Assembly (NCBI GenBank): GCA_943788055.1
Contig: CALSOU010000001.1
Coordinates: 1-64,000, forward strand
Direction: 5' to 3'
DNA length: 64,000 nt
Source of the DNA: an uncultured Saprospiraceae bacterium
GTDB lineage: Bacteria > Bacteroidota > Bacteroidia > Chitinophagales > Saprospiraceae
In this document: positions 1 to 54,021 of the stretch, piece after piece
Layout of the letters: each line of letters starts with the position of its first letter
How positions within the stretch are numbered: the stretch's first letter is position 1
The notes under the pieces: generated by a model
The model's input: the letters and a program-made list of their open reading frames with translations, nothing else
What the model was told of the DNA's origin: nothing
Database searches by the model: none
Made by a program: the position numbers and the translations under genes

Positions 1-372
1 TCAAAACTAAAGGCAAATGAGTGATGTGTTTGATTGAACCCACTTGGTAGTGACGCTACTTGTTCCCATTCTTGCCCTTGCGCTTGGAAGCATATTAAGA
101 GTAAAAAAATGTAAACTAATCGTAGTCTGAAGTGACTTTTTTCTGATTGCACGGAGTTGAAGTGTAGGACTTTATTCATATAACTGTGTCGATCTTGTTG
201 TTTTAAATATTATTATAAATATATATAAATAATTCCTGATTCTACTGTAAACCTATTGTATTGATTGACTTACGGTCGTATCCGAGACTATTCAAATTCA
301 CACACTACAGAGTTAATGGCTGGTGGACTATTCGTTACATACTTTTGTGATTCATTATACGGTTCGAGTATT
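1..372. other. No gene seen at left edge
   Basis: AT-rich stretch downstream (on the minus strand) of the MFS gene. I see no coding frame with family resemblance, no clear hairpin terminator and no RNA gene. A short plus-strand frame from 265 runs over the 3' end of the MFS gene and is a shadow. Confidence 0.5.
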
Positions 373-1716
373 TTATTGAGCTTCAAGATCATCCACTACG
401 TCGTTATCATCGACAATCAAACACAACAACCCTGCAAGGATGAAGGAAACACCACCAACGATCAATGCATAAATTGATGTATTACCGAAGAACGTCTTTA
501 GGATAAAGCCTAGAATTCCTGCTGCGACGATCTGTGGAATAACAATGAAGAAGTTGAACACTCCCATGTAGTAACCCATTTTGTTGGCCGGTAAAATACT
601 GGACAACATGGCATAAGGCATTGAAAGAATACTCGCCCATGCAATCCCAATCCCGATCATCGACACCAATAATAGATTGGGGTCGCTAATAAAGTACACG
701 GATAACAGACCGATGCCTCCACAGAACAAAGCCAACAAATGGGTCATTTTACGACTTATGCGTTTAGCTAATACTGGCAATAGAAAAGCAACCAAGGCTG
801 CAATACCATTATAAATAGCGAAGCAAATACCGACCCAATCAGCACCTTCGTTATACATTGCAGAAGACGTATCAGATGTACCGTAGACATGACTGGTCAC
901 CGCTGAAGTGGTATATATCCACATCGCAAACAGAGCAAACCATGAGAAGAATTGTACAAAAGCAAGTTGTAGCATCGTCTTAGGCATCGAAAATATGCCT
1001 TTGAAAGACTCGATTAATCCCGTAAAGACACCAGTTTCAGCATTTTCTTTTTTAAGAGCCTCCAAATCATCTGGTGGATATTCTTCTGTTTTAAGGACCG
1101 TCCACATCACTGCAAGAAAATAAGCTATTCCACCGATGTAGAACGACCATTTTACTGAATCTGGAATGCCACCATCTTCCGCTACATTACTTACCCCAAA
1201 CCAGTTGGTAAAAATATAGGGCAGAGCAGAGGCAATCACAGCACCAACACCAATAAAAAAGCTTTGCATTGCAAAACCATCTGTTCGTTGTTCGTTGGGT
1301 AACATATCCCCTACAAAAGCACGAAAGGGTTCCATACTGATGTTTATAGATGCATCCATCAGCCAAAGCATGATGACAGACATCCATAGTACAGTAGAAT
1401 TTGGCATAAGAAATAAGGCAATGGTCGCCAGAATTGCTCCTACTGCAAAGAAGGGCCGCCGACGACCCCACTTAGGATGCCAGGTGCGGTCACTGTAGTA
1501 ACCAATAATCGGCTGTACGAGCAAGCCAGTAACTGGAGCTGCCAACCATAAAATAGCTAATTCATCTTTGTGCGCACCTAGGGTTTCAAAAATACGACTG
1601 ACATTTGCATTTTGGAGGGCAAAACCAAATTGGATTCCTAAAAATCCAAAACTCATATTCCAAATCTGCCAAAAAGAGAGACGAGGTTTGGTAGAACTAA
1701 TGGAAATGGTGCTCAT
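373..1716 (-). CDS. MFS sugar transporter, SLC45/GPH-like
   Basis: A 447-residue inner-membrane protein with about 12 hydrophobic segments. The N-terminus (FWQIWNMSFGFLGIQFGFAL, then QNANVSRIF) and the loop YSDRTWHPKWGRRRPFF after TM2 are the signature of the SLC45-like MFS group. In Bacteroidota this group usually sits with maltose or sucrose utilisation genes and imports disaccharides with protons. The RxGRRRP loop is the MFS loop 2-3 motif. The length is normal and the frame is intact. No other sugar gene is visible beside it, since its downstream neighbours lie outside the window, so the substrate is inference. Start: ATG at 1716; there is no Shine-Dalgarno sequence, as usual in this phylum. 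Confidence 0.88.
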   Translation of the reverse strand: MSTISISSTKPRLSFWQIWNMSFGFLGIQFGFALQNANVSRIFETLGAHKDELAILWLAAPVTGLLVQPIIGYYSDRTWHPKWGRRRPFFAVGAILATIALFLMPNSTVLWMSVIMLWLMDASINISMEPFRAFVGDMLPNEQRTDGFAMQSFFIGVGAVIASALPYIFTNWFGVSNVAEDGGIPDSVKWSFYIGGIAYFLAVMWTVLKTEEYPPDDLEALKKENAETGVFTGLIESFKGIFSMPKTMLQLAFVQFFSWFALFAMWIYTTSAVTSHVYGTSDTSSAMYNEGADWVGICFAIYNGIAALVAFLLPVLAKRISRKMTHLLALFCGGIGLLSVYFISDPNLLLVSMIGIGIAWASILSMPYAMLSSILPANKMGYYMGVFNFFIVIPQIVAAGILGFILKTFFGNTSIYALIVGGVSFILAGLLCLIVDDNDVVDDLEAQ

Positions 1717-2506
1717 AAGTAGTAAAGTTGATTATAGAATCATTTGTGTATATGTCACTGATCCTTTTGTTTGTAATGATCTTGTCAAAATACCGTTCAA
1801 CACAAAGAAGCATAATTAGTCGCTCAAACATGGATTCGTGAATCATGATTTATGCTCTCTAAAGGCGCTTGCGGTCTGCTTATGCACTACAGCTATTCGA
1901 AGAGCAAATTATTCTAGCCGCCGTATTCATCTATGAACGTAAACTATGTGATAGGTCTACAATTTTACACATTTATTTTCTAAATGCATTCTTCTAACTA
2001 TTACTTCTGATGCTCTGTGGTTTGTAATATCTTCGATCATGATTTGATCCTGCTCAATAAGTATCAGCGGGTTCGTGCACTGTATTTCGATCAAAAAAAT
2101 CGATCCTTTAACTCCATATTATCGTTTTTCAAAGGATTCTTCTTAAATTATTTCTACTCCTTGTTATTTGGAACGACTGACATATGCGAATACTGATCAT
2201 GATAAGGATGAAAGAAAGTATATATTCTTCTCTCTATTGTTATGGAGGTGCTCATTCGTGATTGCTATGGTTCCTTTTTTGTTATTACGGTATGTGCAAA
2301 CGATGTAACGTCTTTAATTTATTCAACCGTTTTGCCCTTTGTGGCTGGACGTTTTCTCGTTGTAATTAGAGTGTTTATCAATGTATTTCTATATCTCATG
2401 TATAAAACCGTACTGCTTACAGATACAATTCTTTTTTGGGCGCACAGACTGGAACCAATTTAAAAGCTGAAAGAGCGGCAACTTAGATAGGGCGAAACTA
2501 GCTATA
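1717..2506. other. Long intergenic stretch without recognisable gene
   Basis: About 790 bases. The only open frame of note (2242-2463, plus strand) is hydrophobic by T-richness and resembles nothing I know. The region may hold the promoter of the MFS gene on the minus strand and eroded remnants, but I cannot support any feature. Confidence 0.5.
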
Positions 2507-2895
2507 TTATTTCTTGGCTTTTTTCAAGGCCCACATTTTAGCTGGTTCGTAACTTGAAAATACCTTAAAGTCCACTGGGTTTTTCTGAATGCTAAAGATG
2601 AATTTTAGTACTCCTCTTAATACTTTCCCAGGAATAACATATGCTACTCCATAACAGTATTGTTGAATCAGTTCTTTGTTTTCTTTCATCCAAGCAGCTT
2701 GCTTGAGTTGGTATTTTAGTTGAGGTAGGGGAGCTTCACTTAATTCAAAAATTAGAGAAAATGGAAGCTTTGCTTCATAGTTTTTGGCAAGTCCATTAAA
2801 TAGGCTGAGAAGTTTTCGTCTGTTTCTTTGGCACCAGTAAAGTAGATCGATATCAATGGCGGTTCTGAGCGATCGAAGTTTGCATATTTGTTCAT
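2507..2895 (-). pseudogene. Small conserved-looking protein of unknown function, one frameshift
   Basis: The first half reads MNKYANFDRSEPPLISIYF... from ATG 2895 and falls out of frame after ENFSAYL. The second half continues one frame over as LAKNYEAKLPFSLIFEL... to ...SSYEPAKMWALKKAKK. Restoring one A in the short A run near 2803-2806 gives ...AYLNGLAKNYE... and a 129-residue product; 389 bases plus one is exactly 130 codons. I do not recognise the family. It is soluble, basic at the C-terminus and has no signal peptide. A single-base loss or a sequencing error explains the break equally well. It lies downstream of the chaN-like gene on the same strand. Confidence 0.55.
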
Positions 2896-3054
2896 AGTAG
2901 GTATATCTGGTTTAATCAGATTAGCATTTAGTATTCGCCCTTTGTAGTAATAGTCTGGTGATTCATGCAATAGATTTTCAGCTAGCTATAGAGTAAGATT
3001 AAATTTCAATAGCTGCATTTTCTATTGATTCCTTTACCTTGAAGTAATATCACT

Positions 3055-3906
3055 CTAATAGGTCTTCGTCATATCGTCATCAACACAAATAATGAAGTCT
3101 GCTTTGTTGTAATTTTCTTGTAGTAATTTATTTACGTTTTCTTGAGACACAGTAGATATTGTGCCATATTTTAAATCATCTCTCTCCCTTTTAAGGTACC
3201 ATAGAATCCCTTCATAAAAATCGGAATGATAAGCACCATTGTAGTGAAAAAACAGATGGTCGTTTTTATAATTACTTAATATAAAGTAAGCCATTGTTGC
3301 ATCTTTTGTGGCTTGCGCTTGCACTAATTCAGGGCTGCCATGATCTCCCATATCCACGAGTATTTTCTTGTAAGTTGGTAGTTCACTATCAAATGGAATT
3401 GGCAAAGGAGCAATCCATTCTTTTTCTTCTGTATTAAGAGAATCAAGGGCACTAAAGCTTTTTCTGTAAACTAGGTTAGCATATCTTCTAGGTATATTGG
3501 TTGCAACAAATTGAAGTTTGTTTTCTTTTGCAAAATCAACTAAAGGCGCATAATCTGTACTATAATTTGACCAAAGTCTTGCCAATGAATCCAATTCCGA
3601 ATAAGAAATGCTCTCATTTATGTAATCACTTAAATAGCTTTGATTGTCAGCTTCAAACATTTCAGCACCCAAAATAAGTTTACGGGTTTTATGCAGATCA
3701 GATGTCAGTTCATATTGTAACCAGTGAGAAATAGGATTATTATGAAATTCACCAAATAGAATAATATCTTTCTTTTCCAGTGCTTTTTTCATTTTCTTGT
3801 AACTTACTTTTTTACCTTTTGAGTTATAAATTACGTAGGGGTTCTTTTGACTGAAGACGATATTGGAAAGAAGTAAAAAGCCTATTATAAAGATTATGTT
3901 TTTCAT
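3055..3906 (-). CDS. ChaN family (PF04187) secreted protein
   Basis: A 283-residue protein with an N-terminal signal peptide ending near ...LLLSNIVFSQ, so exported. The core motif IILFGEFHNNPISHWLQ and the later FEADNQSYLSDYI and VDMGDHGSPELVQAQATKDATMA blocks match the ChaN/DUF399 family, whose characterised member binds haem and is linked to iron uptake. There is no lipobox Cys, so it is periplasmic or secreted rather than a lipoprotein. The gene starts 25 bases downstream of an attC-like site on the same strand, so it may be the first gene of a cassette or sit at the edge of one. No matching 3' site was found. Confidence 0.82.
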   Translation of the reverse strand: MKNIIFIIGFLLLSNIVFSQKNPYVIYNSKGKKVSYKKMKKALEKKDIILFGEFHNNPISHWLQYELTSDLHKTRKLILGAEMFEADNQSYLSDYINESISYSELDSLARLWSNYSTDYAPLVDFAKENKLQFVATNIPRRYANLVYRKSFSALDSLNTEEKEWIAPLPIPFDSELPTYKKILVDMGDHGSPELVQAQATKDATMAYFILSNYKNDHLFFHYNGAYHSDFYEGILWYLKRERDDLKYGTISTVSQENVNKLLQENYNKADFIICVDDDMTKTY

Positions 3907-3930
3907 TTAGATGTTTTTTTGTTTTTTCCT

Positions 3931-4003
3931 TGTAGCCAACGTTCCGTGTATGGTGTCGTAGCATCCCGAAGGGTGCTATGCACTATACACATTGTTGTAT
4001 GCC
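3931..4003 (-). repeat. attC-like recombination site, minus orientation
   Basis: On the minus strand it starts with GGCATACAAC (R''-like), runs through a long imperfect hairpin with a TTCG turn flanked by GCACCC and GGATGC, and ends in GGAACGTTGGCTACA (R'-like, G^TT). The arms pair over about 20 bases with two unpaired bases on one side, as in attC folds with extrahelical bases. It lies 3' of hsdR and 5' of the ChaN gene, in the orientation expected for a cassette site. Forty-nine bases (3938-3986) are identical to the opposite-strand copy at 49812-49860. Confidence 0.7.
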
Positions 4004-4074
4004 GTTTTTATTTTATTCATTTCGTTTTTAGCGTTGGCGAGAAAGCTCTTTGCAACCGCAGGAACGAGGATTGC

Positions 4075-4099
4075 AATGTGCTTGAACTTGCGTTGGCTT
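4075..4099. repeat. Left copy of imperfect direct repeat flanking the hsd locus
   Basis: The plus strand reads aatgtgcttgaacttgcg followed by ttggctt. It matches the stretch at 10380-10405 (aatgtgcttgaacgtgcg then gtgggctt) with one substitution and one extra base. The two copies lie just inside the two ends of the restriction locus. Confidence 0.5.
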
Positions 4100-4107
4100 A
4101 TTCTTTA

Positions 4108-7100
4108 TCATCTATTCTTCTTAAAATTCTCTGCTTGTTCAAATATCTCTTTGTACACTTCATCTCTATCTACAGGTGGATAACCATTATCACCCAAGAG
4201 AATGATCAAGTCCACTTTTAGTTCTGCTTTGATATCATTACGTTCACTCCAGTCTGTGTATTTAGCTTTGTCGTCAACTATTTGTTTTACTTCTTTCGCT
4301 AGGAATAACAGTTTGTCTTTTGGATAGGAGAAATCATATTTCTCGGCTAATGCCTTTAGAATATCGAAAAAGGCTTTTTCTTCAAAATCAATACCTAAAT
4401 CATCACCAGCAGCAAACTCATCTTTAAGTTCCATGATTAGATTCGTCAATTCAGCAGCAATGGCTTCAAATTCTTCTCCCGTATAGACATTGTCTTTCCG
4501 CTCGTTATAACGATCTACAACAGCTTGCATTTTCTTAGAGAATTCGATTCCTTGAATCTTATTAACCTTTCGCATTTCTCCTATAGCTTTAGCTAATAGC
4601 TTTTGAAGTAATTGAATCTTAGTATTTGGCAATTTTATTTTATCAATATTCGCCAGATAATCTAAAGCAAATATGTCTTGTTCTTGTTTTCTTCATCTCC
4701 TAACTTGATGATTTCTTCAATACCATCACTTTCCAATGCAGCAGCTACTTTTCACGCACATAAGCATTCATTTGCTCTGTGTCTGGTGCTTGACCTTTGG
4801 TTAGCTTGTAAACAATAGAGCGAATTGCTAAATAAAAGTGGATATAGTCCTTATGCTCTTGAGTTAATTCTTCACTTCCGCAACAGATATCATAAGCAGA
4901 TTTTAAGCGCTTTACCATATCCATGAATCGCTTTTTATTCTCTTCAGAACGCAAGACAAATTCAGAGGCTCTATTTAAGCACTGCAATTGTGCTAAAGGT
5001 TGACCATTGAAATAATCACCGCTATCAAAGCCATGAAAGAATCTATCTAATAAATCCAAGTGATTTTTAACAACGACAACCGATTGACCTATATCTTCAA
5101 AATTCTGACCATCTACCTTATTGTAGATTGCCAAAGCCAGATTCATTTCTTTCTTGATGCCAATATAATCGACAATCAAACCTTTTCCTTTTCCAGCAAA
5201 CTTTCTGTTTACCCTTGAAATGGTTTGAATTAAATTATGTCTTTTGACAGGCTTGTCTATGTACATGGTGTCTAAGAACGGTACATCAAATCCAGTAAGC
5301 CACATATCTACTACAATGGCAATTTTAAAGTTTGATTTCTCATTTTTAAACTGTCTGTCTAATTCTTTTCGATAGGCTTTATCACCAAGTGCATTATACA
5401 TTTCTTCTGGGTCATCTTTCCCACGAGTCATAATCATTTTGATGCGCTCCATAGGTTTGATTTCCTTCTTATCCTTATCAGATAATTCGGCACCTTCTTC
5501 ACACTCCCTAACTTCTGCCCATTGTGGACGTAGTTTGATGACTTCCTTATAAAAAGCATAAGCCGTTGGACGGCTGGAAGAAACAAACATGGCTTTTCCT
5601 TTTACAGTTGAACCTTCTTTTATTCTTGTTTCGTAATGCTGCACGAAGTCCTTGGCAATGGCTTCTAAACGGTCTGGATCTCCTAAGACCATGTTCATGT
5701 TGGAACTTTCCTTCTTACTTTTTTCTACGTGATATTCAGAAGCACCTTCAGCAACTGCATTTTCGTAATAATTCTCAATGTCTTTCAGCACCGAATTATT
5801 CAAACTCATCTTTGCGGCTCTGCCTTCATAAACGATTCTAACAGTAATTTCATCCGTTACCGATTCGGTCATGGTATAAGAATCTACTATATCTCCAAAC
5901 ACGTCCAACGTGGCATCTACAGGTGTTCCTGTAAAACCAACATAAGTGGCATTGGGTAAAGAATCGTGCAAATGCTTTGCAAAACCATAAGATTTCTTTA
6001 CGGTTCCTTTTTCATGGTCAATTGTGATTTTCTGATCTAAATTGATTTGACTTCTGTGCGCTTCATCCGAAATACAAACCACATTGGTTCTTTCGGTTAA
6101 CACGTCTGTATCTTCATTGAATTTATGAATGGTGGTCAAGAATACACCACCACTGTTTCTGCCGTTTAGTTTATCTCGTAAGTCGGTTCTGCTCGTAACG
6201 GTTTGCACCACATTGTCTCCAATATAACCTTTTGCGTTGGTGAATTGACCGGACAACTGGTCGTCCAAATCAGTTCTATCGGTAATGATAACAATAGTTG
6301 GGCTTTCCATTTCCTGACTCTTCATGAGCAAACGAGTTAAGAAAAGCATGGTGAAACTTTTACCACAACCAGTAGTACCGAAATAGGTTCCACCTTTTCC
6401 ATCACCATTTGGTTTTTGGTGAAGTAGAATATTTTTAAATAGTTTCCGTGTGGCGTAATACTGAGGGTATCGACAAACGATCTTTTCATCTTTTTTAGAA
6501 GTATCCGGAATGAAAACAAAATTACGAATGATATCACGTAAACGATCATGATCAAACATTCCTTTGATAAGGGTTATCATGGAGTCTATACCTACAACTT
6601 CATTGGGTAAGCCTTCAATTTTTCGCCAAGCATAAAAGAACTCATAAGGTGCAAAGAAGGAACCTGCTTTGGAGTTTGCACCATCACTAATTACACAAAA
6701 GGCATTATATTTAAATAGTTCTGGTATGTCTCTTTTGTAGCGAGTGGTTAACTGCACATAAGCATCATGAATGGTTACATTTTCATTGATAGCTGTCTTA
6801 AACTCAAATACAACTAATGGAATTCCATTGATGTATAAAATACCATCTGGAATACGCTTGTGATATCCTGTAATCTCTAACTGATTGACAATTTTGTAGG
6901 TATTGTTATTCTTTTCTGAATAGTCAATGAAGTAAATCCAAATGTCTTTTTGAGAACGATCTTCACGTTTTAATGCAAAACCATCTGAAATGAGTTTCAT
7001 AATGGCTTTGTTGCTCTCGTATAAATCAGAAGAAGAAAAAACTTCTAATTGACGTATAATTTGATCCGCTTCTGATTCCGTTAACTTATCTGCCTTGTAT

Positions 7101-7246
7101 CGATTGAGTAAAAAGATTTTTAAGTCTTCTTTGATTAAGACTTCATCTTCTGAACGTGCAATATCTCCACCCAACACATGAGGAATATCCTCTTGTCCCA
7201 ATAGCTCAATAAAAGCTTCTTCTAATTGTGCTTCTGTGAACTTCAT
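4108..7246 (-). pseudogene. hsdR: Type I restriction endonuclease subunit R, two frameshifts
   Basis: Motor and nuclease subunit of a type I system: ATP-driven translocation and cutting of unmodified DNA. Visible parts: an N-terminal nuclease core (VVFEFK, residues 145-150), Walker A GTTGCGKS (290-297), SDEAH (393-397), and helicase motif VI ISRVNRKFAGKGKG. The first frame stops at 4745 after MNAYVREK. One missing A near 4750 restores VAAALESDGIEE, and a second missing A near 4673 restores QDIFALDYLANID, leading into the last 174 codons (EcoEI R-type C-terminal region). Correcting both gives 1047 codons including the stop, a normal HsdR length. It starts inside the hsdS stop (ATGA overlap). 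Either restriction is lost or these are sequence errors. Confidence 0.9.
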
Positions 7247-8481
7247 AAAGCTTGTTCAATTTTAGGCGATTCAACTTTTGACATTTTTTGAAGTACTAAA
7301 TCTGATAGTTTTTTTAATTCTATAATTTGTTTTGAATTATTGCAAAGGGATTTGTAAATAGGTGTGATTTTAGAATCATATAGTTTAGATACTTTTTTAG
7401 ACGTATTTAAAACCTTTTTACCTTCAAAGTCTTTAGTAACCAATGCTTTAAATACTGCACCTACAGCCTCCCTTTTTAGAGATTTAATTGTCTCCATGGT
7501 TAGTTGATGAATATAGTAGGCTCCAATTCTTTCATCGCCTAAAATAGCATAACAACTTTGATTCATTGCCATAGGTACTCCGGCTAATGAAACTGCACCA
7601 ACCGTCCCTCTAACTGTAACAAATACAGTGTTTTTAGGATAAAGTTTACTACTGCAATTTTCTAATCCTGAATTAGTAATATATTTTTCGGTAATTAAAC
7701 TATAATAAGAATCTTCAACATCTTTTGGTGTAAAAAAAGGTATATTACCATCCCAGTAATTCTGTTCATTTGTTTTAGGTGTTCCACCACCTTTAAGTTC
7801 GACAACTTTAGTAAAAGATTCGTTACTCCATCCCTCAGGAATCTCTTTATCCAACTCCTCATTATAAACCATTTTGCCACCAGAAGATTTATAAGACCGT
7901 CCATTTTCATTTGGGAATTCAAAATCTACAAACCAACGTTTGTAAAGTGCTCGTGCTGTTTCTTCTAGTTTTTGGTTGAGTTGTTCGTTAAGTTTTATGC
8001 GATTGTCAACAGTGTTATATTCTTTTACAATTTCTCGTTGTTTTTCAATTGATGGGACAGGGAGTTGCACATCACATAACTCGTCCCAATTGAAACCGCC
8101 ACGAACAGCACTATCACAACAGAAATATGCATACCTATCAAACTCTGAACGTCTAAACCACATCATTAAATATTCTGGATGAAGTAAATTTGAATCAATT
8201 ATCTCAAAAGTCGTATAGGCTGGAGAGACAATGATTTGCTCATCATTGTCTTGCATTACAACTGGTAATTTTCTTACTCGAATCGTTGACATGAAATCAC
8301 AAGCAAACTGCCATTGATTTACAACTTTATATCTAGATAAATCTGTGCCTATAATATTTGAAGCATGCGGCCTAAATTCTTTAGTCATACTAAGACCAAG
8401 TAGCTTAGTATTTTGAGAATTTTTATTTCTCACATCAATCTTATGAATGAAATCACCTAATCTTCTATAGCTCAATTTCAT
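7243..8481 (-). CDS. hsdS: Type I restriction-modification specificity subunit S
   Basis: A 412-residue DNA-recognition subunit that directs HsdM and HsdR to a bipartite target. It has two target-recognition domains (about 1-150 and 215-365). Between them is a conserved helical spacer with KLEETARALYKRWFVDFEFP (near residues 170-190), and a second helical spacer forms the C-terminus (IIELKKLSDLVLQKMSKVE). The second TRD begins at the usual IPEGW motif. It overlaps hsdM by 17 bases upstream and hsdR by 4 downstream, so the three genes form one translationally coupled operon. The target site cannot be read from sequence. Confidence 0.95.
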   Translation of the reverse strand: MKLSYRRLGDFIHKIDVRNKNSQNTKLLGLSMTKEFRPHASNIIGTDLSRYKVVNQWQFACDFMSTIRVRKLPVVMQDNDEQIIVSPAYTTFEIIDSNLLHPEYLMMWFRRSEFDRYAYFCCDSAVRGGFNWDELCDVQLPVPSIEKQREIVKEYNTVDNRIKLNEQLNQKLEETARALYKRWFVDFEFPNENGRSYKSSGGKMVYNEELDKEIPEGWSNESFTKVVELKGGGTPKTNEQNYWDGNIPFFTPKDVEDSYYSLITEKYITNSGLENCSSKLYPKNTVFVTVRGTVGAVSLAGVPMAMNQSCYAILGDERIGAYYIHQLTMETIKSLKREAVGAVFKALVTKDFEGKKVLNTSKKVSKLYDSKITPIYKSLCNNSKQIIELKKLSDLVLQKMSKVESPKIEQAL

Positions 8482-10033
8482 ATCCGATTTCTTTAAATAC
8501 GTTTAATAAATCTTTTTTTGACTTTGCTTCTTCTTTTAATAATTCTGAAAACTCAGTTTGTAAAGCCGACATTTTCTCATCAAAATTGATATTTTCATCA
8601 CGGTTGACGAATTCAATGTACTTACTCGCAGCTAAAGCATAATCCTTGCTTTTAATTTCTTCAAAAGTTGCAGAGTAACAGTATTCAGGGATGTCTTCAT
8701 ATCCTTTATCATTTTGCTGCCATTTATGATATGTTTCGGCAATTTCTACTGTTACTTCTGGTGTAAATTGAATGTACTTTTTCTCAAAAGGGACGCCTTT
8801 TTCACGTAAATCCATGAATAACACTTCATCTTTTCGGTCTCGGTAGTTTCTTTCTACATCATTTAGCTTGACAACACGTTCTTTCTTATTATTATTTATA
8901 ATCCAAAGTGTTACACTAATGTCAGTGGTATAGAACATTTTATTTGGCAAAATCACAATAGCTTCCACCAAACCGTTTTCAATCAATTTCTTTCGGATTT
9001 TATATTCCTCACTTCCTCCAGATAGAGCCCCATTTGCTAAGATAAATCCAGCAACACCATTGTCTGATAATTTGGAAACCATATTGAGAATCCAAGCATA
9101 GTTGGCGTTTCCAGTTTGCGGAACCTCATAACCTCTCCATCTTGGATCATCTAATAATTCATTGTTCGCTCGCCAATCTTTTTGGTTAAAAGGAGGGTTT
9201 GCCATAATGTAATCTGCTTTTAAATCTTTGTGCTGATCCTTTGAAAATGTATCTGCTGGAACTGCACCCAAATTGGCGGATATTCCCCTAATTGCTAAGT
9301 TCATTTTAGCCAGTTTGTAGGTAGTAGAGGTGTATTCTTGCCCGTAAATAGAAACATCCTTTTTGTTACCATTATGACTATCAATAAACTTCATAGATTG
9401 AACAAACATACCTCCCGAACCACAAGCTGGGTCATAAATTTTTCCTTTGTAAGGCTCAATCATTTCGGTGATAAGGTTTACAATGCTTTTAGGTGTATAG
9501 AATTCTCCTTTTCCCTTACCCTCAGCAATTGCAAACTTGCTTAAGAAATATTCGTACACACGTCCAACAATGTCTTGCTGTTTGTCCTTAAGCGTATCAA
9601 TGTTGTTAATGGTGTCTAACAGAGCCGCCAACTTGCTCACGTCCATATTTAAACGAGAGAAGTAGTTATCTGGCAAAGCTCCTTTTAAAGAAGGGTTGTT
9701 CTTTTCAGTAGTATGGAGGGCAGTATCAATAATCAATGCAATGTTGTCTTGCTTTGAGTTTTTGATGATATGGCTCCAACGAGATTCTTCTGGCAAAAAG
9801 AAGATGTTCTTCATATTATAGAACTCCTTCATCTCTAAATATTTCTCTTTACCTTCTTCAATCAGTTCTTGTCTTCTTTTTTCAAACTTGTCACTCGCAA
9901 ATTTGAGGAAGATCAACCCTAATACTACATGTTTGTATTCAGAGGACTCAACGGTTCCTCTTAATTTATTGGCAGCATCCCATAGCTGCTCTTCCATTGA
10001 TTTTGTCTTTTTTGCTGCTGCTTTTTTAGCCAT
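8465..10033 (-). CDS. hsdM: Type I restriction-modification DNA methyltransferase subunit M
   Basis: A 522-residue adenine-N6 methyltransferase. The N-terminal helical domain (MEEQLWDAANKLRGTVESSE, residues 13-32) is the HsdM_N type. The SAM-binding motif I DPACGSGGMF lies at 201-210 and the catalytic NPPF at 279-282. The frame is intact with a Lys/Ala-rich start (MAKKAAAKKTKSMEEQ). It is the second gene of the locus, 4 bases after the XRE regulator stop. M plus S can methylate without R, so even if hsdR is dead the pair may still mark the chromosome. Confidence 0.97.
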   Translation of the reverse strand: MAKKAAAKKTKSMEEQLWDAANKLRGTVESSEYKHVVLGLIFLKFASDKFEKRRQELIEEGKEKYLEMKEFYNMKNIFFLPEESRWSHIIKNSKQDNIALIIDTALHTTEKNNPSLKGALPDNYFSRLNMDVSKLAALLDTINNIDTLKDKQQDIVGRVYEYFLSKFAIAEGKGKGEFYTPKSIVNLITEMIEPYKGKIYDPACGSGGMFVQSMKFIDSHNGNKKDVSIYGQEYTSTTYKLAKMNLAIRGISANLGAVPADTFSKDQHKDLKADYIMANPPFNQKDWRANNELLDDPRWRGYEVPQTGNANYAWILNMVSKLSDNGVAGFILANGALSGGSEEYKIRKKLIENGLVEAIVILPNKMFYTTDISVTLWIINNNKKERVVKLNDVERNYRDRKDEVLFMDLREKGVPFEKKYIQFTPEVTVEIAETYHKWQQNDKGYEDIPEYCYSATFEEIKSKDYALAASKYIEFVNRDENINFDEKMSALQTEFSELLKEEAKSKKDLLNVFKEIGYEIEL

Positions 10034-10037
10034 TTAT

Positions 10038-10238
10038 TTATTTCTTGTCTTTCGATTCAACTAATAGGTCTTTTGCTTCTATACCCAATATCTCCGCAAT
10101 CTTGTACAGGTCTTCAATACTGGGTTGTCTTCTGTTTTGAGCATATGAGTTTACCATATTGTAGCTCTTGCCAAGCTTTTCAGCCAACCAGATTTGCTTA
10201 ATTCCTTTTTCTTCTAAAACCTCTTTAATTCGGTTCAT
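10038..10238 (-). CDS. Small XRE-type helix-turn-helix regulator of the hsd locus
   Basis: A 66-residue Cro/CI-type DNA-binding protein. The helices read IKQIWLAEKLGKSYNMVNSY and QPSIEDLYKIAEILGIEAKD, which fill the whole protein. I chose ATG 10238 (MNRIKEVLEEKG), because the nine extra residues from 10265 precede the domain. It lies immediately upstream of hsdM on the same strand. Controller-type XRE proteins often sit there and delay restriction until methylation is established; that role is inference here. Confidence 0.85.
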   Translation of the reverse strand: MNRIKEVLEEKGIKQIWLAEKLGKSYNMVNSYAQNRRQPSIEDLYKIAEILGIEAKDLLVESKDKK

Positions 10239-10379
10239 TTTTGAATTATTTAATTCAGATAGCAAAATAGGAATTATATTTCAATATCTCACTAAATGAG
10301 TATAAAAATAACCATCTAAGTTTGGGTGGCGGTGGGGAAGTGAAAGCGCTTTTGATTTTGTGAGGCACGAGCAAAATTA

Positions 10380-10405
10380 AATGTGCTTGAACGTGCGGTG
10401 GGCTT
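10380..10405. repeat. Right copy of imperfect direct repeat flanking the hsd locus
   Basis: The plus strand reads aatgtgcttgaacgtgcg then gtgggctt, the partner of 4075-4099. Together the two copies bracket hsdR-S-M and the regulator. The rest of 10266-10527 holds no gene. Confidence 0.5.
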
Positions 10406-10420
10406 TTCTTTTCTTCTAAT

Positions 10421-10430
10421 GGCATACAAC
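10421..10430 (-). repeat. R'-like half site at the 5' end of the hsd cassette
   Basis: The minus strand reads GTTGTATGCC, the exact complement of the GGCATACAAC that opens the attC-like site 3' of hsdR (3994-4003). In integron cassettes the first bases of a cassette are complementary to the start of its own 3' site. The rest of an attC site is not clearly recognisable on the upstream side (10431-10520), and the usual GAACGTT is replaced by AGTAAGTT. Confidence 0.45.
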
Positions 10431-10527
10431 TTACTTATAACCACCACTTATTTTCACTTTTCAGTCGTTTTTTGACGATTTTTTGCGAAAAAGTGAGCAT
10501 TGGTGTCGAATTATAAACCGAAGTTAC

Positions 10528-10605: not shown

Positions 10606-12600
10606 TTACTTCAGGTGCTTAGCAAAGAAGCCCATCATTGATTGATATAACTCAATACGATTCTCTTCATGACCAAAACCATGACCTTCATTGTACTTAA
10701 CCATATAAGGAACATCAACGTTTCTATCTCTTAGTTTGCTTACGATCTGATCAGATTCATTGATATTCACTCGTGGATCGTTGGCTCCTTGCACTACAAA
10801 TAGTGGCTTCGTAATCTTATCAACGTGCAATGCAGGGCTAACTTCTTCCATAAGTTTCTTTTCTTCCTCATTGGTTTCGTCATACCATTGCTCGTAGAAT
10901 TGCGCCATAAATGGTTTCCAGTATGCAGGGAATGAATTGACAAATGTGAATAAGTTGGAAACACCCACATAGTCAACGCCACAAGTGTATAGATCTGGAG
11001 TTTTTACCAAACTTCCCAACGTCGCCAAACCTCCATAACTCGCTCCGTAGATTGCAACTCGATCGCCATCGATAAAGTCCATACTTTTGGCGAAAGCCAC
11101 ACCATCTTCTAGATCATTAAGCATTTTGCGACCGATCTGCTTGCTTCCTGCTAAGAAGTGTTTTTTACCATAACCTCCAGAACCTCTGTAGTTTACCTGT
11201 AGTGTAGCATAACCTCTACTTGCAAAAATCTGCGTTTCAGGATTGAAACCCCAATTGTCTCTTGGTCCATAAGGTCCACCATGTGGATTTACGATCAATG
11301 GTACTTTCTTGCCCACTTTAGCGCTGTTCGGAATGGTAAGATATCCGTGAACAGTCAGACCATCTCTTGTCTTATACATGATCGGTCTCATTTCCGCCAT
11401 ATCGCTTTCCTTAAGCTGCGGCATAAGGTCGATCACTTCTTTGAAACTATCATCTTCCTTGTCGTAAACGAAGTACTTACCATAAAGTCTATCTGATGTA
11501 ACGTAGATCAGGTACTTATCTTCAGCCTCCGTTTTACTAGAAATAGAAAACTGCTTATCACCAAATTGCTTTTGGAATTTCTTATGAAGTTTCTTGTAGT
11601 AATCACTCACTGGAATCACAACACGCTTTTCACCTGTATAAGAGTAGTAATCTACTTCGTAGTCGCGCTTACGAGATCGTGAAATACCGCTTACATCGTA
11701 CGTATCGTTGCTGTAGATCTTCTTGATCGTCTTCATTGTACCTAGATCCACAAGTAGAATCTCGTCTGTATCAGACTCAAGATTACTGATCACATAGGCG
11801 TGATCTGGATTTTTGGACTCATAGTCAAATCCTTGGATGTAGAAATTATCTTTCCACGTTGTTTCGATGATCTGTTCAAAATCTTCTGCTCCGTTTTTCT
11901 TGAAGAATAGAACATAGTTTACGCCTCCTTTTTGCTTCGTAAAAGCACGAAGATTTCCGTCCTTATCAAAATCATACGATGCGATCGGATTTGTAGGGTC
12001 TGGATTGTCGTATAATTTGACTAGATCACCATTAGTCACGTTTAGTTTGTATGGCTCAAAGACTTCAGGATTATCTTTATTCATTTGAATAATCATATAC
12101 TCCTTCTGATCTGGCAAACTATTAATGATTCCAGCTCTAACATCCTCAAAAGGCGTTAAGTCTTGTTGGTTTTTTCCATCAAGGTCGATTGCATAGATGT
12201 GGTAGTTTTCGTTACCACCTTGATCGCTAACATAAAGCAAACGATTGTCGTTGGCCCATCCATATCCTCTAATCAACTCTTCACCTTCTTCAATTACTTT
12301 TGAGACCTCATCCGTTTCCGTACTCTTTACGAAAACATGGCTTTTTCCATTTTCATCCCGCTCGCGGTATGAAACGTACTGTCCATTGGGAGAAAACTGA
12401 AAATCTGATTTTTCTGGTTTCTTAAAATAATCGGAAACTTCGTAGTCAAAACTACCAGTTTCAAGGGCAGCTAATGCTTGAAGATTTTCGGTTGAAGAGG
12501 GTAGGGACTTGTCTCCAGGAAGTTCGGCCTCTGTTGTCTGTGCTTGCATATAATTAATACTTAGGCAGGCTAATAAGAATAATAGTACTCTACTTGTCAT
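10606..12600 (-). CDS. S9 family prolyl oligopeptidase-type peptidase
   Basis: An exported serine peptidase of 664 residues from ATG 12600 (MTSRVLLFLLACLSINYMQA, a clear signal peptide). The longer frame from 12639 would put 13 polar residues before it. An N-terminal seven-bladed propeller-like region (about 50-400) with FSPNGQYVSYRERDE and repeated strands is followed by the alpha/beta-hydrolase domain. The catalytic triad is Ser521 in GASYGG, Asp608 in GANDPR and His640 in NEGHGF. This is the acylaminoacyl/dipeptidyl-peptidase pattern, which trims peptides in the periplasm. Monocistronic with its own terminator. Confidence 0.93.
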   Translation of the reverse strand: MTSRVLLFLLACLSINYMQAQTTEAELPGDKSLPSSTENLQALAALETGSFDYEVSDYFKKPEKSDFQFSPNGQYVSYRERDENGKSHVFVKSTETDEVSKVIEEGEELIRGYGWANDNRLLYVSDQGGNENYHIYAIDLDGKNQQDLTPFEDVRAGIINSLPDQKEYMIIQMNKDNPEVFEPYKLNVTNGDLVKLYDNPDPTNPIASYDFDKDGNLRAFTKQKGGVNYVLFFKKNGAEDFEQIIETTWKDNFYIQGFDYESKNPDHAYVISNLESDTDEILLVDLGTMKTIKKIYSNDTYDVSGISRSRKRDYEVDYYSYTGEKRVVIPVSDYYKKLHKKFQKQFGDKQFSISSKTEAEDKYLIYVTSDRLYGKYFVYDKEDDSFKEVIDLMPQLKESDMAEMRPIMYKTRDGLTVHGYLTIPNSAKVGKKVPLIVNPHGGPYGPRDNWGFNPETQIFASRGYATLQVNYRGSGGYGKKHFLAGSKQIGRKMLNDLEDGVAFAKSMDFIDGDRVAIYGASYGGLATLGSLVKTPDLYTCGVDYVGVSNLFTFVNSFPAYWKPFMAQFYEQWYDETNEEEKKLMEEVSPALHVDKITKPLFVVQGANDPRVNINESDQIVSKLRDRNVDVPYMVKYNEGHGFGHEENRIELYQSMMGFFAKHLK

Positions 12601-12649
12601 TAGTAATAGGTTTTGATATACGTAAACATAGCTATTCATGAAGCTTTCT

Positions 12650-49801: not shown

Positions 49802-49866
49802 TAGGCAGACAATAGTGCATAGCACCCTTCGGGATGCTACGACACCATACACGGAACGTTATGGGC
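49802..49866 (+). repeat. attC-like site 1 (start of cassette array)
   Basis: Shortened R''-like GGCAGACAA, then the hairpin arms with a TTCG turn, then ACGGAACGTTATGGGC (R'). The 49 bases at 49812-49860 equal those on the minus strand at 3938-3986. GTTATGGGC at 49858-49866 is the exact complement of GCCCATAAC at 50411-50419. Confidence 0.7.
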
Positions 49867-50048
49867 AAGTTATTAAAACGAAATAGCAAAATGACAAGAG
49901 AGCCACCAAATAAATTACTTTGATTGTTCATAATTATCGAATTGACCATAGGTTGATTGATAAATTTTAATCAAAAAAAAAACACAGCGGAACCGAAAAG
50001 CTTTATGAGTAGGGAAAACAAATTATTAATAACATTAAAGAAAAGATT

Positions 50049-50358
50049 ATGTCAGAAGAAATTAAAACTAACGAGCAAAGCAACGCAGGACAAACAATTA
50101 TTGTTAACCAGCAAGAAAAAAAAAACAAATGGTGTTGGAACAGCAGGTTTCGTACTTGCTTTAATTGCAATATTCCTTGGTTGGATTTCCAGTTCTTGGT
50201 TGGATAATATGGGGTTTTAGGACTTATTTTATCTTTTGTAGGTGTTTTTAAAAAACCAAAGGGGAATGGCAATTGCTGGATTAGTGATTTCACTAATTGG
50301 AATAATTTTAATTCTTACTGTATTTGGTGCTCTTTTAGGGGCTGCTGCTGCTCTCTAA
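50049..50358 (+). pseudogene. DUF4190-like small membrane protein, four one-base insertions
   Basis: The corrected product opens MSEEIKTNEQSNAGQTIIVN. The reading is displaced four times by one extra base: in an A10 run (50106-50115), in GGATTTCC (near 50187), in TGGGGTT (near 50212) and in AAAGGGGAA (near 50262). Dropping all four gives 102 codons: NGVGTAGFVLALIAIFLGW, a second helix WVLGLILSFVGVFKKPKG, and a third helix GLVISLIGIILILTVFGALL. The DUF4190-like three-helix pattern is clear; function unknown. It is the payload of cassette 1. Confidence 0.65.
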
Positions 50359-50410
50359 TAAATAAATTATACTTTCGATTAATATTTGCGAAAGTAAAAC
50401 AAGAAAACCA

Positions 50411-50440
50411 GCCCATAACAAAGGCTCATAAAGCATTGCT
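50411..50440 (+). repeat. attC-like site 2, truncated
   Basis: GCCCATAACAAAGGCTCATA, continuing AAGCATTGCT, is the left half of a site. The usual right half with GAACGTT is absent and the sequence runs straight into the damaged SHOCT gene. Its nine leading bases pair with the start of cassette 1. Confidence 0.6.
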
Positions 50441-50794: not shown

Positions 50795-50850
50795 TTAGCT
50801 AACAAAGCCTAAACTGCATTAAAACGCAGTTTAGCCAGAACGTTGCCCAC
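50795..50850 (+). repeat. attC-like site 3
   Basis: TTAGCTAACAAAGCCTAAAC then TGCATTAAAACGCAGTTTAG and CCAGAACGTTGCCCAC. The arms CTAAACTGC and GCAGTTTAG are perfect complements around an 8-base turn. GTTGCCCAC at 50842-50850 is the exact complement of GTGGGCAAC at 53008-53016, the next site. Confidence 0.72.
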
Positions 50851-50885
50851 AATTAAAACGGACAGCAGTAATACAATTAAACTGA

Positions 50886-53002
50886 ATGAATAAACAGCCA
50901 AAACCAGACTCAAAAAAATATACGGACTTGATATCCGAAATTCAAAAAGGTCAAATTAAAATTCCCGAAATTCCAACGGGATTTTGTTTGGAGCATTGAC
51001 AAAACTGCAAAACTTTTGGACAGTATTTTAAAAGGCTATCCGATTGGGACATTCATTCTGTGGGAAACTAACGAGAGATTAAACGACATTAAAAATATTG
51101 GAAATCTTGCCTTGCCACCTGTTCCAGACGACATAAAAGTTCAATACGTTTTAGACGGACAACAGACGAATTACATCTTTGTATGCTGCATTTTTGGGTG
51201 CTCACATTCAAAAAGAAGGAGAGAAAAAAATCACAAATTATGGTTCAATATTCGTTGATTTGGAAGGCGACATTGATAATAATGACGAGCAAATAATTCT
51301 TTCTGAGCAACCTGAAACTAAAAACATTTCTCTAAAAGATTTACTAAATTCAAAATATCAGCGATTTAAGAGAAAAATATTCAAATGAGGATATTGACAA
51401 AATTCAGGAATACAAAGAAACTTTCTACTTCTTATGATTTCTCAACAGTCGTACTTCGTAAAGAAGATATTGATTCTGCAATAGAAGTTTTTACTCGAAT
51501 AAATACAGGCGGACAAACTTTAACTCTTTTTGAGATAATGTCTGCAAAAACTTATGACGAGGAACAGAAATTCGATATGCAAGACCGATTTCAAAAATTA
51601 CTCAAACAACTTGAAGTCAGTAAATACGAAACTATTTCAAGTACAGTAATTCTAAATGTTTTAGGTTTAATATTAAGTAAAAACAAAGAGTGTAAACGAA
51701 AAGTCGTTTTACAATTAGACAAGCAAAGTATCATTGATATTTGGGACGATGTAATTTCCTCGCTAAAAGAAAGCATTGACTATTTCCGTTCAGTTTACAG
51801 AATTCCTGTATCAACTTTATTGCCATACGATGCACTTTTAGTTCCTTTCAGTTACTTTTTCTACTACCAAAAAGAAAAACCAAAAGGCGAACAGATTAAA
51901 TATTTAGAAGAATTCTTTTGGAGAATTTCATTATCGTACAGATATTCAAGTTCAACAGAATCTAAACTTGCTCAAGATATTAAGAGAATTGACCAAATTT
52001 TAAATGGAGAACGACCAAATTACGATGAAATAAAAGTCTTTTTAAGTTCACCAAGAGATTTAATAGACACAAATTTTAGTGCAGGAAATAGTTATTGTAA
52101 AGCTGTTCTTTGCTTTTAGCTTATTCAGAGCCTAAAGACTTTCAAGATAACGGAAAAGTTATCCTTGACAACTCTTGGTTAAAAATGGCAAATAGTAAAA
52201 ACTATCATCACTTTTTCCCAAAATCGTATTTAAGAAAACAAGGAATTGGAAACGAAAATAGTATTGTGAATATAACGTTGGTTGGTGCAGATTTAAACAA
52301 ACGTAAAATACGAGCAAAAGCACCTTCAATTTACATTCAAGATTTCTTGGACGAAAATGCAGAATTACATAAATCTATAAAATCACATTTAATTGACAAC
52401 ATAGATGATTTCGGAATTCACAGCGATGATTATTCCGTATTTTTAGAAAAGAGAGCGACCTCTATCTATAATGCTTTAAAGAACAGAATAGAATTCACAA
52501 ACACAGAAAAGATTGAAGATACAGAATTGAAAGAATTAATCTTAATCGGAGAAAATGAAAAGTTGGAAATGAAATCAACTTTGCGTTATGATTTAAGGCA
52601 GAACATTGTAAATAAAAATTTAGAGTATGTTATCGCCAAAACCGTTTCAGCATTTTTAAACAGCGAAGGTGGAATTTTAATAATCGGAGTTGATGATAAT
52701 GGAAATGCGTTAGGACTTGAAAAAGATATTGAAACCTTTTCAAAAAAGGACGTTGACGGATTTGAATTGCATTTAAGGAACATCATAAAAAACATTTAGG
52801 TTCAAACTTTGAAAAGCATCTAAAAATTACGTTCCCAATAATTGACGAAAAGACTATTTGCAAAGTTAAAATCCTAAAAAGTGGAAAGCCAGTATTTGCA
52901 AATTTTGAGGGAAAAGATAGTTTTTACGTGCGAAATGGAAACTCATCAATTCCGAAAAACAGAGAAGAACAAAGCGAGTACGAAAAGCTACATTGGAAAT
53001 AA
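50886..53002 (+). pseudogene. DUF262-HNH (GmrSD-type) protein fused to an AlbA_2 domain, six indels
   Basis: Corrected, this is a 704-residue protein (2117 bases minus four extra plus two missing is 705 codons). The N-terminal DUF262 domain has FVWSIDKTAKLLDSILKGYP and the VLDGQQR motif, and an FTRINTGGQTLTLFEIMSA block. The HNH-type nuclease region shows NYHHFFPKSYLRKQGIGNEN. The C-terminal ~170 residues (ENEKLEMKSTLRYDLRQN, NSEGGILIIGVDDNG) are an AlbA_2/Schlafen-type DNA-binding domain. Extra bases are near 50969, 51165, 51354 and 51430; missing bases are near 52110 and 52790. DUF262-HNH (GmrSD/type IV-like) proteins cut modified phage DNA; the AlbA_2 addition is uncommon. Payload of cassette 3. 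Confidence 0.75.
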
Positions 53003-53007
53003 TATCT

Positions 53008-53143
53008 GTGGGCAACAATGTATAAAAACAATAGCGGTTTAATCGCTAAAACGAAAGCAAGTAAATATAAAAAAAGGTCTGTGTTTAACCGAAAAGTTAG
53101 TGCGTGTTAATCCGCTACTATTCTTATACTAGAACGTTGGCAG
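53008..53143 (+). repeat. attC-like site 4
   Basis: Begins GTGGGCAACAATGTATAAAA and ends CTTATACTAGAACGTTGGCA with a final G. The outer arms are near-complementary (ATAAAAACAATAGCGG near the start against CCGCTACTATTCTTAT near the end). Longest site of the set. Confidence 0.7.
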
Positions 53144-53884: not shown

Positions 53885-53940
53885 GTAGAGAACAACACCT
53901 AAATTACATTAAAACATAATTTAGCCGGAACGTTCTCTGC
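53885..53940 (+). repeat. attC-like site 5
   Basis: GTAGAGAACAACACCTAAAT then TACATTAAAACATAATTTAG and CCGGAACGTTCTCTGC. The inner arms CTAAATTAC / ATAATTTAG pair with one wobble, and the turn ATTAAAAC equals that of site 3. R'' GTAGAGAAC pairs with R' GTTCTCTGC in the same site with one mismatch, not with the start of the preceding cassette. Confidence 0.68.
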
Positions 53941-54021
53941 AAGCAATGAAAAATGAGAAAATTGTGATCAATTTTGCGTAAAATTTGTTAAAGAGATATA
54001 CGTTAACAAAATAGATTTTTG

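Follow-up and report, generated by a model that had tools for sequence, protein, structure and literature searches.

A type I restriction-modification locus of an uncultured Saprospiraceae bacterium is probably a single giant integron-type cassette

The stretch analyzed here (the window) comprises the first 64,000 nucleotides of contig CALSOU010000001.1 (GenBank assembly GCA_943788055.1, forward strand), from an uncultured Saprospiraceae bacterium, and carries on its minus strand a type I restriction-modification (RM) locus with the layout of an integron cassette. A Pfam scan confirmed the set of subunits and a regulator: an XRE-type helix-turn-helix protein of 66 amino acids (aa) counted from its ATG (10038-10238; HTH_3, 8.5e-12), hsdM (8465-10033; N6_Mtase, 1.6e-101, and HsdM_N), hsdS (7243-8481; Methylase_S) and hsdR, which is split over two frames, with the first 833 aa at 4745-7246 (HSDR_N and SWI2_SNF2) and the last 174 aa at 4108-4632 (T1RH-like_C). 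An initial annotation of this DNA had called the locus complete, which holds for the presence of all genes but not for the integrity of hsdR. On the same strand, the locus is flanked by a ChaN-like gene (3055-3906) and an S9 peptidase gene (10606-12639), both assigned by library match.

The ends of the locus, R' = GTTGTATGCC (10421-10430, minus strand) and R'' = GGCATACAAC (3994-4003), are exact reverse complements over 10 of 10 bases, and R'' belongs to an attC site (3941-4003, minus strand) located 3' of hsdR. The complementary ends of the initial annotation were thereby confirmed, and the extent that it had given, 3931-10430, was corrected to a cassette of 6,490 bp at 3941-10430. Read from 10439 downwards on the minus strand, the order is TATAAGTAA, GTTGTATGCC, a 5' hairpin element, XRE, hsdM, hsdS, hsdR, a 3' hairpin element, GGCATACAAC, the attC body, GTTGGCTAC and the ChaN-like gene. 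The cassette is inserted at an attI-like word (TATAAGTAA followed by GTT; 10428-10439, minus strand) that is shared exactly with integrase loci, and its 5' neighbour is attI-like rather than an attC. Exact copies of GTTGTATGCC occur only twice in the window, at 10430-10421 (minus) and at 3994-4003 (plus, read as GGCATACAAC on the minus strand), and six times in the 3.0 Mb of the genome vs. three times for the reversed control word. From this density, we estimate that a chance partner on the correct strand within about 10 kb would be roughly a 1% event. No attC with a matching R'' was detected for the ChaN-like gene, as GTTGGCTAC is absent from 1-3925 of the plus strand at up to one mismatch. 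Further, Rfam returned no family in the window at gathering thresholds, and the exact attC word GGCATACAACAATGTGTATA was absent from the viral contigs searched.

Here, R, L, spacer, extrahelical base and bottom strand carry the meanings customary in the integron literature. When the attC of the hsd cassette was joined to the cassette start, the bottom strand was predicted to form an R stem of 10 bp and, across a 4/2 spacer, an L stem in which one base bulges out, with a stability of -20.2 kcal/mol vs. -16.7 kcal/mol for the top strand. Circular attC sites reconstituted in the same manner (up to 110 nt, from 11 source strands, longer ones being left out) also folded into R and L stems separated by a spacer, with bulges, and the bottom strand was the more stable in all 15 predicted folds (16 of 16 when one pair judged spurious is included). 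A sequence-only attC model (R1) was discarded, as RNAalifold gave no consensus pairs on the MAFFT alignment of 13 attC sites.

The initial annotation had proposed that relatives should carry the block precisely between these ends, and one distant genome does so in another setting. The closest HsdM of the genome collection (97%) is encoded on L072, an 8.3-kb contig of a Crocinitomicaceae metagenome-assembled genome. By blastn, L072 1694-8171 aligned with window 10430-3935 in two pieces, the gap corresponding to part of hsdS. On the left, similarity begins in both genomes with the first base of GTTGTATGCC, and on the right it ends at the GTT after the attC (3940), beyond which a few bases match by chance. 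The two distant genomes share one unit with exact GTT ends, from 10430 to 3940, that differs in one hsdS stretch, and have nothing in common outside it. In steps of 100 bases, identity at the right end dropped from 94% in the final step of the cassette to at most 37% outside, and at the left end it did not exceed 42% outside; beyond the first 100 bp of the 5' end, the cassette was 79-98% identical per step, with 38-72% in the hsdS stretch.

Protein identities followed the same profile, with 98% for XRE over 64 aa, 97.3% for HsdM, and 94.7% and 96% for the two parts of HsdR (94.7-98.4% for these three proteins), in contrast with 57.7% for HsdS and 56% for the chromosomal XerD ortholog. One stretch of hsdS is about 40% identical at the DNA level, and a target domain has probably been exchanged. 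The L072 HsdR is unbroken (1046 aa), hence the window copy has either decayed or contains sequencing errors. L072 carries the hsd cassette within an array: immediately before it, a cassette with the start GTTGGCGGT terminates in its attC, another with ends GTTACCATG and CATGGTAAC lies one position earlier, and a further start, GTTAGCACC, follows. The exact common ends together with the high identity of the cassette, compared with 56% for XerD, indicate recent horizontal transfer as one unit whose ends are those that the cassette model predicts, and the identical limits in a different setting argue that the block moved as such. Eighty loci with HsdM relatives were kept for examination; a loose test of end complementarity and hairpin formation applied to them was dropped, as 57 of the 80 passed and it was uninformative in AT-rich DNA.

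Close to both ends, an imperfect direct repeat of 25-26 bases had been described initially. The repeat is real but longer (32 nt, 84% identical; 4075-4106 and 10380-10411), and is part of two larger hairpin elements. A pattern built from both copies matched those alone, with no match in 100 shuffles. The 5' element (10324-10404, minus strand) is a hairpin between C-rich flanks that holds one repeat copy, and the 3' element (4031-4097, minus strand) is a covarying hairpin with the core CCTCGTTCCTGCGG. Both were recognized by eye in 11 giant cassettes (the window, L072 and the nine described below), although the 5' hairpin of L191 is divergent; the 3' element is present by construction in the six cassettes that were found through its core, and not in the other five. 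Among the 11 sequences of the 3' hairpin, 13 cells changed on both sides vs. 4.9 in shuffles, with none of 500 shuffles as high; numbers of changed pairs (4 vs. 3.1) and of pair types (4 vs. 5.1) were not above those of shuffles. None of these elements was seen in the small cassettes of the window and of contig C2 of the same genome. They may serve in insulation or RNA stability. The strand complementary to the C-rich tail of the 5' element, CCCACCCACCACCC (e.g., in L064, L065, L066 and L200), has the sequence GGGTGGTGGGTGGG and may form a G-quadruplex.

Nine further giant cassettes of about 5.5-9.3 kb were found with the same anatomy and different R'/R'' words. Three of them, each complete and with 9/9 complementary ends, belong to G003, a genome of the same genus reached via DNA similarity. 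They carry XRE, type I M, S, PrrC and R (L064, 7.7 kb); XRE, type I R, an M-S fusion and Drt2 (L065, 7.3 kb); and XRE, an SNF2/DrmD-like helicase, a IIG-like methylase and an ATPase (L066, 9.3 kb). The other six were obtained with the 3' core CCTCGTNCCTGCGG, which occurs across 298 genomes of the order at 29 places in 23 genomes, the window being one of them, vs. nine places for the reversed control. When the other 28 places were fetched, eight carried the 3' element (one of them partially), and in six of these eight an R'' then follows, with its complement 5.4-9.2 kb upstream. The remaining 20 did not qualify as the element on visual inspection, although one, L183, still scored 4e-7 with the covariance model described below. 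With an 8-base end, L184, L191 and L199 also passed the automatic hairpin test; L188, L189 and L200 were recognized from end words and elements.

With regard to cargo, L184 encodes DUF6088, AbiEii and type I M, S and R; L199 encodes AbiEi, AbiEii and type I M, S and R; L189 has an XRE-like first gene and type I M, S and R (PADLOC); L191 has XRE, type I M, S and a PtuA-like ATPase; and L200 has XRE and a type III RM system. HsdS and HsdR of L184, HsdS of L064 and L199, and the small XRE-like genes are labelled here by gene order or sequence look only. Thus, type I or III RM, RM with PrrC, AbiE or Drt2, a helicase-methylase system and metal efflux are all represented. The last is the cargo of L188 (3839-13175), in which the same end elements enclose Fur, RND efflux, HlyD and P-type ATPase genes, not a defence system, and the start lies at the attI-like motif. 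As a separate observation, non-coding DNA upstream of the Drt2 reverse transcriptase in L065 (1795-2253) is conserved, with a second copy on contig C115 (L068, about 5240-5650), and possibly encodes the Drt2 template RNA.

A covariance model of the 3' element gave hits in 41 of 396 genomes at E ≤ 1e-4, and 18 hits in 13 genomes at 1e-10; many of the hits weaker than 1e-10 are about 85 nt long and may be tRNA-like. Eleven new hits were fetched, all at E ≤ 1e-10 except one at 1.6e-9. By eye, an R''-like word follows within about 100 nt in eight of them, ending with AAC in five and with a one-base variant in three. A matching start was present in two of the 11, L242 (5.3 kb, with a 5' element) and L244 (about 1.2 kb); three of the other six R''-bearing hits have under 1.6 kb of upstream DNA and three are without a start. 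Group IIC introns are known to target attC sites. Rfam group II introns were matched past the 3' element in L198 (5292-5374, 16 nt away) and L236 (11686-11859, 386 nt away), near the expected position of the attC.

The same kind of ends was seen in small cassettes of the genome. On the plus strand of the window, a cassette at 49858-50419 (start GTTATGGGC, R'' GCCCATAAC), whose attC failed the automatic hairpin test, and a 2.3-kb cassette at 50842-53135 (start GTTGCCCAC, R'' GTGGGCAAC plus attC) each have 9/9 complementary ends (49858 with 50411, and 50842 with 53008). An attC-type site at 49812-49857, also on the plus strand, is identical to that of the hsd cassette over 49 nt (49812-49860), with the R'' part missing. 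In contig C2, two end pairs were complementary at 9/9 and one at 8/9, as assessed by eye. The end complementarity initially described for short cassettes hence stands for these pairs, with two exceptions, one cassette of C2 (start GTTATTCTT) and one of the window (start GTTGGCAGT), that are unpaired with the next R''. An automatic search for 9-base starts with a complementary word and an L-box hairpin returned 36 rows in 0.62 M strand-bases (22 sources), alternatives and some clear false pairs included, vs. 12 in 2.46 M shuffled strand-bases.

Three further observations concern these small arrays. The R'' of an attC at 53886-53945 of the window, GCCAGTAGAGAAC, is nearly that of giant cassettes, and the site is followed by the start of three giant cassettes, GTTCTCTGCAAGC; no R'' GCAGAGAAC is found downstream of this start in the window, and it is possibly a remnant. 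The large gene of the 2.3-kb cassette (51016-52799) is seemingly split into several frames, as is hsdR, through decay or homopolymer-type sequencing errors. Finally, a tmRNA match is located near the small cassette array of C2 (L019, 11758-12001).

The attI-like word links the hsd cassette to integrase loci elsewhere. In its strict form, TATAAGTAAGTT, which was derived from the window, L162 and L174, it occurs at four distinct places in 4.83 M strand-bases, namely these three and L191, and in L162 and L174 it stands directly 3' of integrases. This form was fixed before 20 further integrase loci were collected, and recurs in one of the 20, L253, again 3' of the integrase. A looser motif, TATA[AT][AG][CT][AG]AGTT, lies within 300 nt 3' of 15 of the 32 integrases (12 of the 20 further loci) and nowhere else in these loci. 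Elsewhere, 17 occurrences were counted in 4.90 M strand-bases, of which 11 look like chance; the other six are the window cassette start, the duplicate locus L023, the starts of L188 and L244, a site upstream of L244, and L191.

The integrases in question are XerA/IntI-like and adjoin cassette arrays, with cassettes starting within 260 nt in 13 of 32 loci and integrase and array on the same strand in 12 of these 13. Among the first 12 loci, cassettes lay within 260 nt in six, on the same strand in L164, L170, L172, L173 and L174 and divergently in L171; of the 16 fetched, the truncated L163 and the weak matches L175-L177 in G003 were not counted. Among the 20 further loci, which were picked by score and 11 of whose contigs end within 1.2 kb of the gene, seven had a cassette 59-254 nt 3' of the gene and one more at 1,195 nt. 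Other IntI-like hits, e.g., in G146, G179, G181, G070 and G257, were left out of this set. The integrase gene of locus L172 is followed, about 94 nt 3' of it, by the start of one of the giant cassettes, L189, as matched by end words.

In an alignment of seven of these integrases, the catalytic residues of tyrosine recombinases, which we take to be the motif R-H-R-H-Y, were invariant in all seven. TIGR02249, the profile for canonical IntI, matched each of the seven in two stretches and below its 265-bit cut-off; in the five that were checked, 54-67 profile positions are replaced by 13-25 residues. In line with this, residues 183-245 of the IntI4 chain in structure 2a3v correspond to 21 residues in the L170 integrase, the additional (I2) domain being absent. 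The NF040815 cut-off was passed by two of the seven, and the structures ranking best for the L170 integrase were 4a8e (XerC-like recombinase), with XerA (5hxy) in third place. A profile of the seven sequences matched 113 of 248 genomes at E ≤ 1e-75, adjacency to arrays being known for the loci named above. No IntI over the TIGR02249 cut-off was found in 22 genomes, comprising the window genome, three of the same genus, the L072 genome and 17 in which the 3' core was matched (in some by chance).

We consider it highly probable that the hsd genes form one giant integron cassette, moved by a recombinase and expressed by itself. A XerA/IntI-like tyrosine recombinase of related arrays would excise it as a circle, with R'' pairing with its own R' in the folded bottom-strand attC, and it would insert at the attI-like TATAARYAA followed by GTT, here in a place devoid of a resident integrase. 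Once inserted, the genes would be expressed from their own XRE-controlled promoter, dispensing with an array promoter, and the paired hairpin elements may insulate or stabilize the operon. More broadly, and only somewhat more confidently than its opposite, we propose that Bacteroidota-type genomes hold a separate integron lineage, in which integrases that never acquired or have lost I2 recombine folded attC sites, and whose pool consists partly of modular 5-9 kb operon cassettes with fixed hairpin ends and swapped defence or metal-resistance operons.

Several results speak against the single-cassette interpretation. No integrase lies beside the hsd cassette, and the window genome encodes neither a member of the I2-less family at E ≤ 1e-75 nor an IntI over the cut-off. 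The empty site that the cassette model expects, TATAAGTAAGTTGGCTAC (junction 10439/3940), was not found, the relatives being too distant or, in a close one, the contig having 125 bases left after the peptidase gene. Identity to L072 is just 56% over the first 100 bp within the 5' end, and the broken hsdR may render the window copy inactive. The GTT after the attC is missing in L188 and in L061 (the latter a 3' end only), and the 15 of 32 integrases with the looser attI motif constitute a description and not a blind test, as the sites were already known when the motif was drawn up. Cassette recombination itself is a prediction from sequence.

These points were weighed together with three other explanations. 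That an ordinary chromosomal or island-borne type I RM locus lies beside an attC-like site, with coincidental end complementarity, would suit the frequency of close HsdM relatives, since L072 alone among the 80 loci kept is a convincing cassette, as well as the six copies of GTTGTATGCC in the genome. We regard this as extremely improbable: the L072 unit begins and ends exactly at the predicted bases, and the layout is repeated with different R'/R'' words, with an attI-like word at the start. A transposon-like unit (IS200/IS605- or MITE-like) bounded by the hairpin elements, with attC-like sites as mere target, is very improbable as well. Both elements do lie near the ends of 11 giant cassettes and the 3' one covaries, but identity with L072 runs past both elements to R' and R'', no transposase was found among the genes of the unit (XRE, hsdM, hsdS and hsdR), and the small cassettes in which the elements were not seen show the same end complementarity.

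An unlikely, though more serious, alternative is that a canonical I2-bearing IntI from another host moved the cassette and that the I2-less integrases are unrelated Xer-type enzymes. Neither enzyme is present in the window genome, and IntI1 recombines attC sites of distant organisms, e.g., archaeal ones, according to the part of PMC9668308 available. This contrasts with the absence of IntI over the cut-off from all 22 genomes and with the 13 of 32 I2-less integrases that directly adjoin arrays.

Read as an integron cassette, the hsd unit shares with integron cassettes and with clusters of attC sites lacking an integrase (CALINs) the R''/R' complementarity, the bottom-strand fold and insertion at GTT, and with CALINs also the array context of L072 and a genome in which no integrase was found. 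Typical integron cassettes measure about 0.5-1 kb and carry one open reading frame (ORF). The hsd unit differs in being a four-gene operon of 6.5 kb with its own regulator, about ten times the usual size, in agreement with the initial remark that it would far exceed typical cassettes, and nine more giants were found. All type I RM subunits are there, as in other hsdMSR systems, yet packed as one mobile cassette. In Vibrio and mobile integrons, cassettes likewise carry phage defence, as stated in the available part of PMC12444791, which cites 2025 papers on the subject; here, in contrast, single cassettes with conserved end elements carry entire multi-gene RM operons (type I, type III, or with PrrC, AbiE or Drt2).

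With regard to the enzymes, the array-adjacent integrases resemble canonical IntI (TIGR02249; 2a3v) in their catalytic residues, an IntI-like C-terminus (SPLD), and adjacency to an attI-like site and an array, but are devoid of I2, fall below the cut-off and mostly lie on the array strand. Their nearest structures and the two sequences over the NF040815 cut-off ("site-specific tyrosine recombinase/integron integrase") relate them to XerA, from which they differ in adjoining attI-like sites and cassette arrays. As far as the part available of a 2020 paper goes (PMC7790495), I2 is reported from no other protein, and IntI1 is inactive once I2 is deleted. Bacteroidota or the Bacteroidetes/Chlorobi group appear among integron carriers in the available portions of PMC8618304 and PMC2426708. 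No title on giant operon cassettes or I2-less integrons was among the matches listed from the open-licence literature, which is without subscription journals or preprints. Neither type I RM systems nor integron cassettes are new in themselves; what looks to be new is that operons are carried in giant cassettes whose ends are conserved, within an integron lineage apparently lacking I2.

Common integron tools require an IntI patch. In the part of PMC9668308 mentioned above, attC clusters are defined by under 4 kb between attC sites. Searches bound by either rule would miss systems such as this one. The content of integron cassettes would thus be widened from one small promoterless ORF to a full restriction system with its own regulator, and defence operons would thereby gain a precise recombination route between distant bacteria. 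Finally, the single-strand recombination of cassettes by integron integrases is attributed to the I2 helix, and I2-less integrases beside arrays of folding attC sites would offer a natural test of whether I2 is needed in single-strand recombination.

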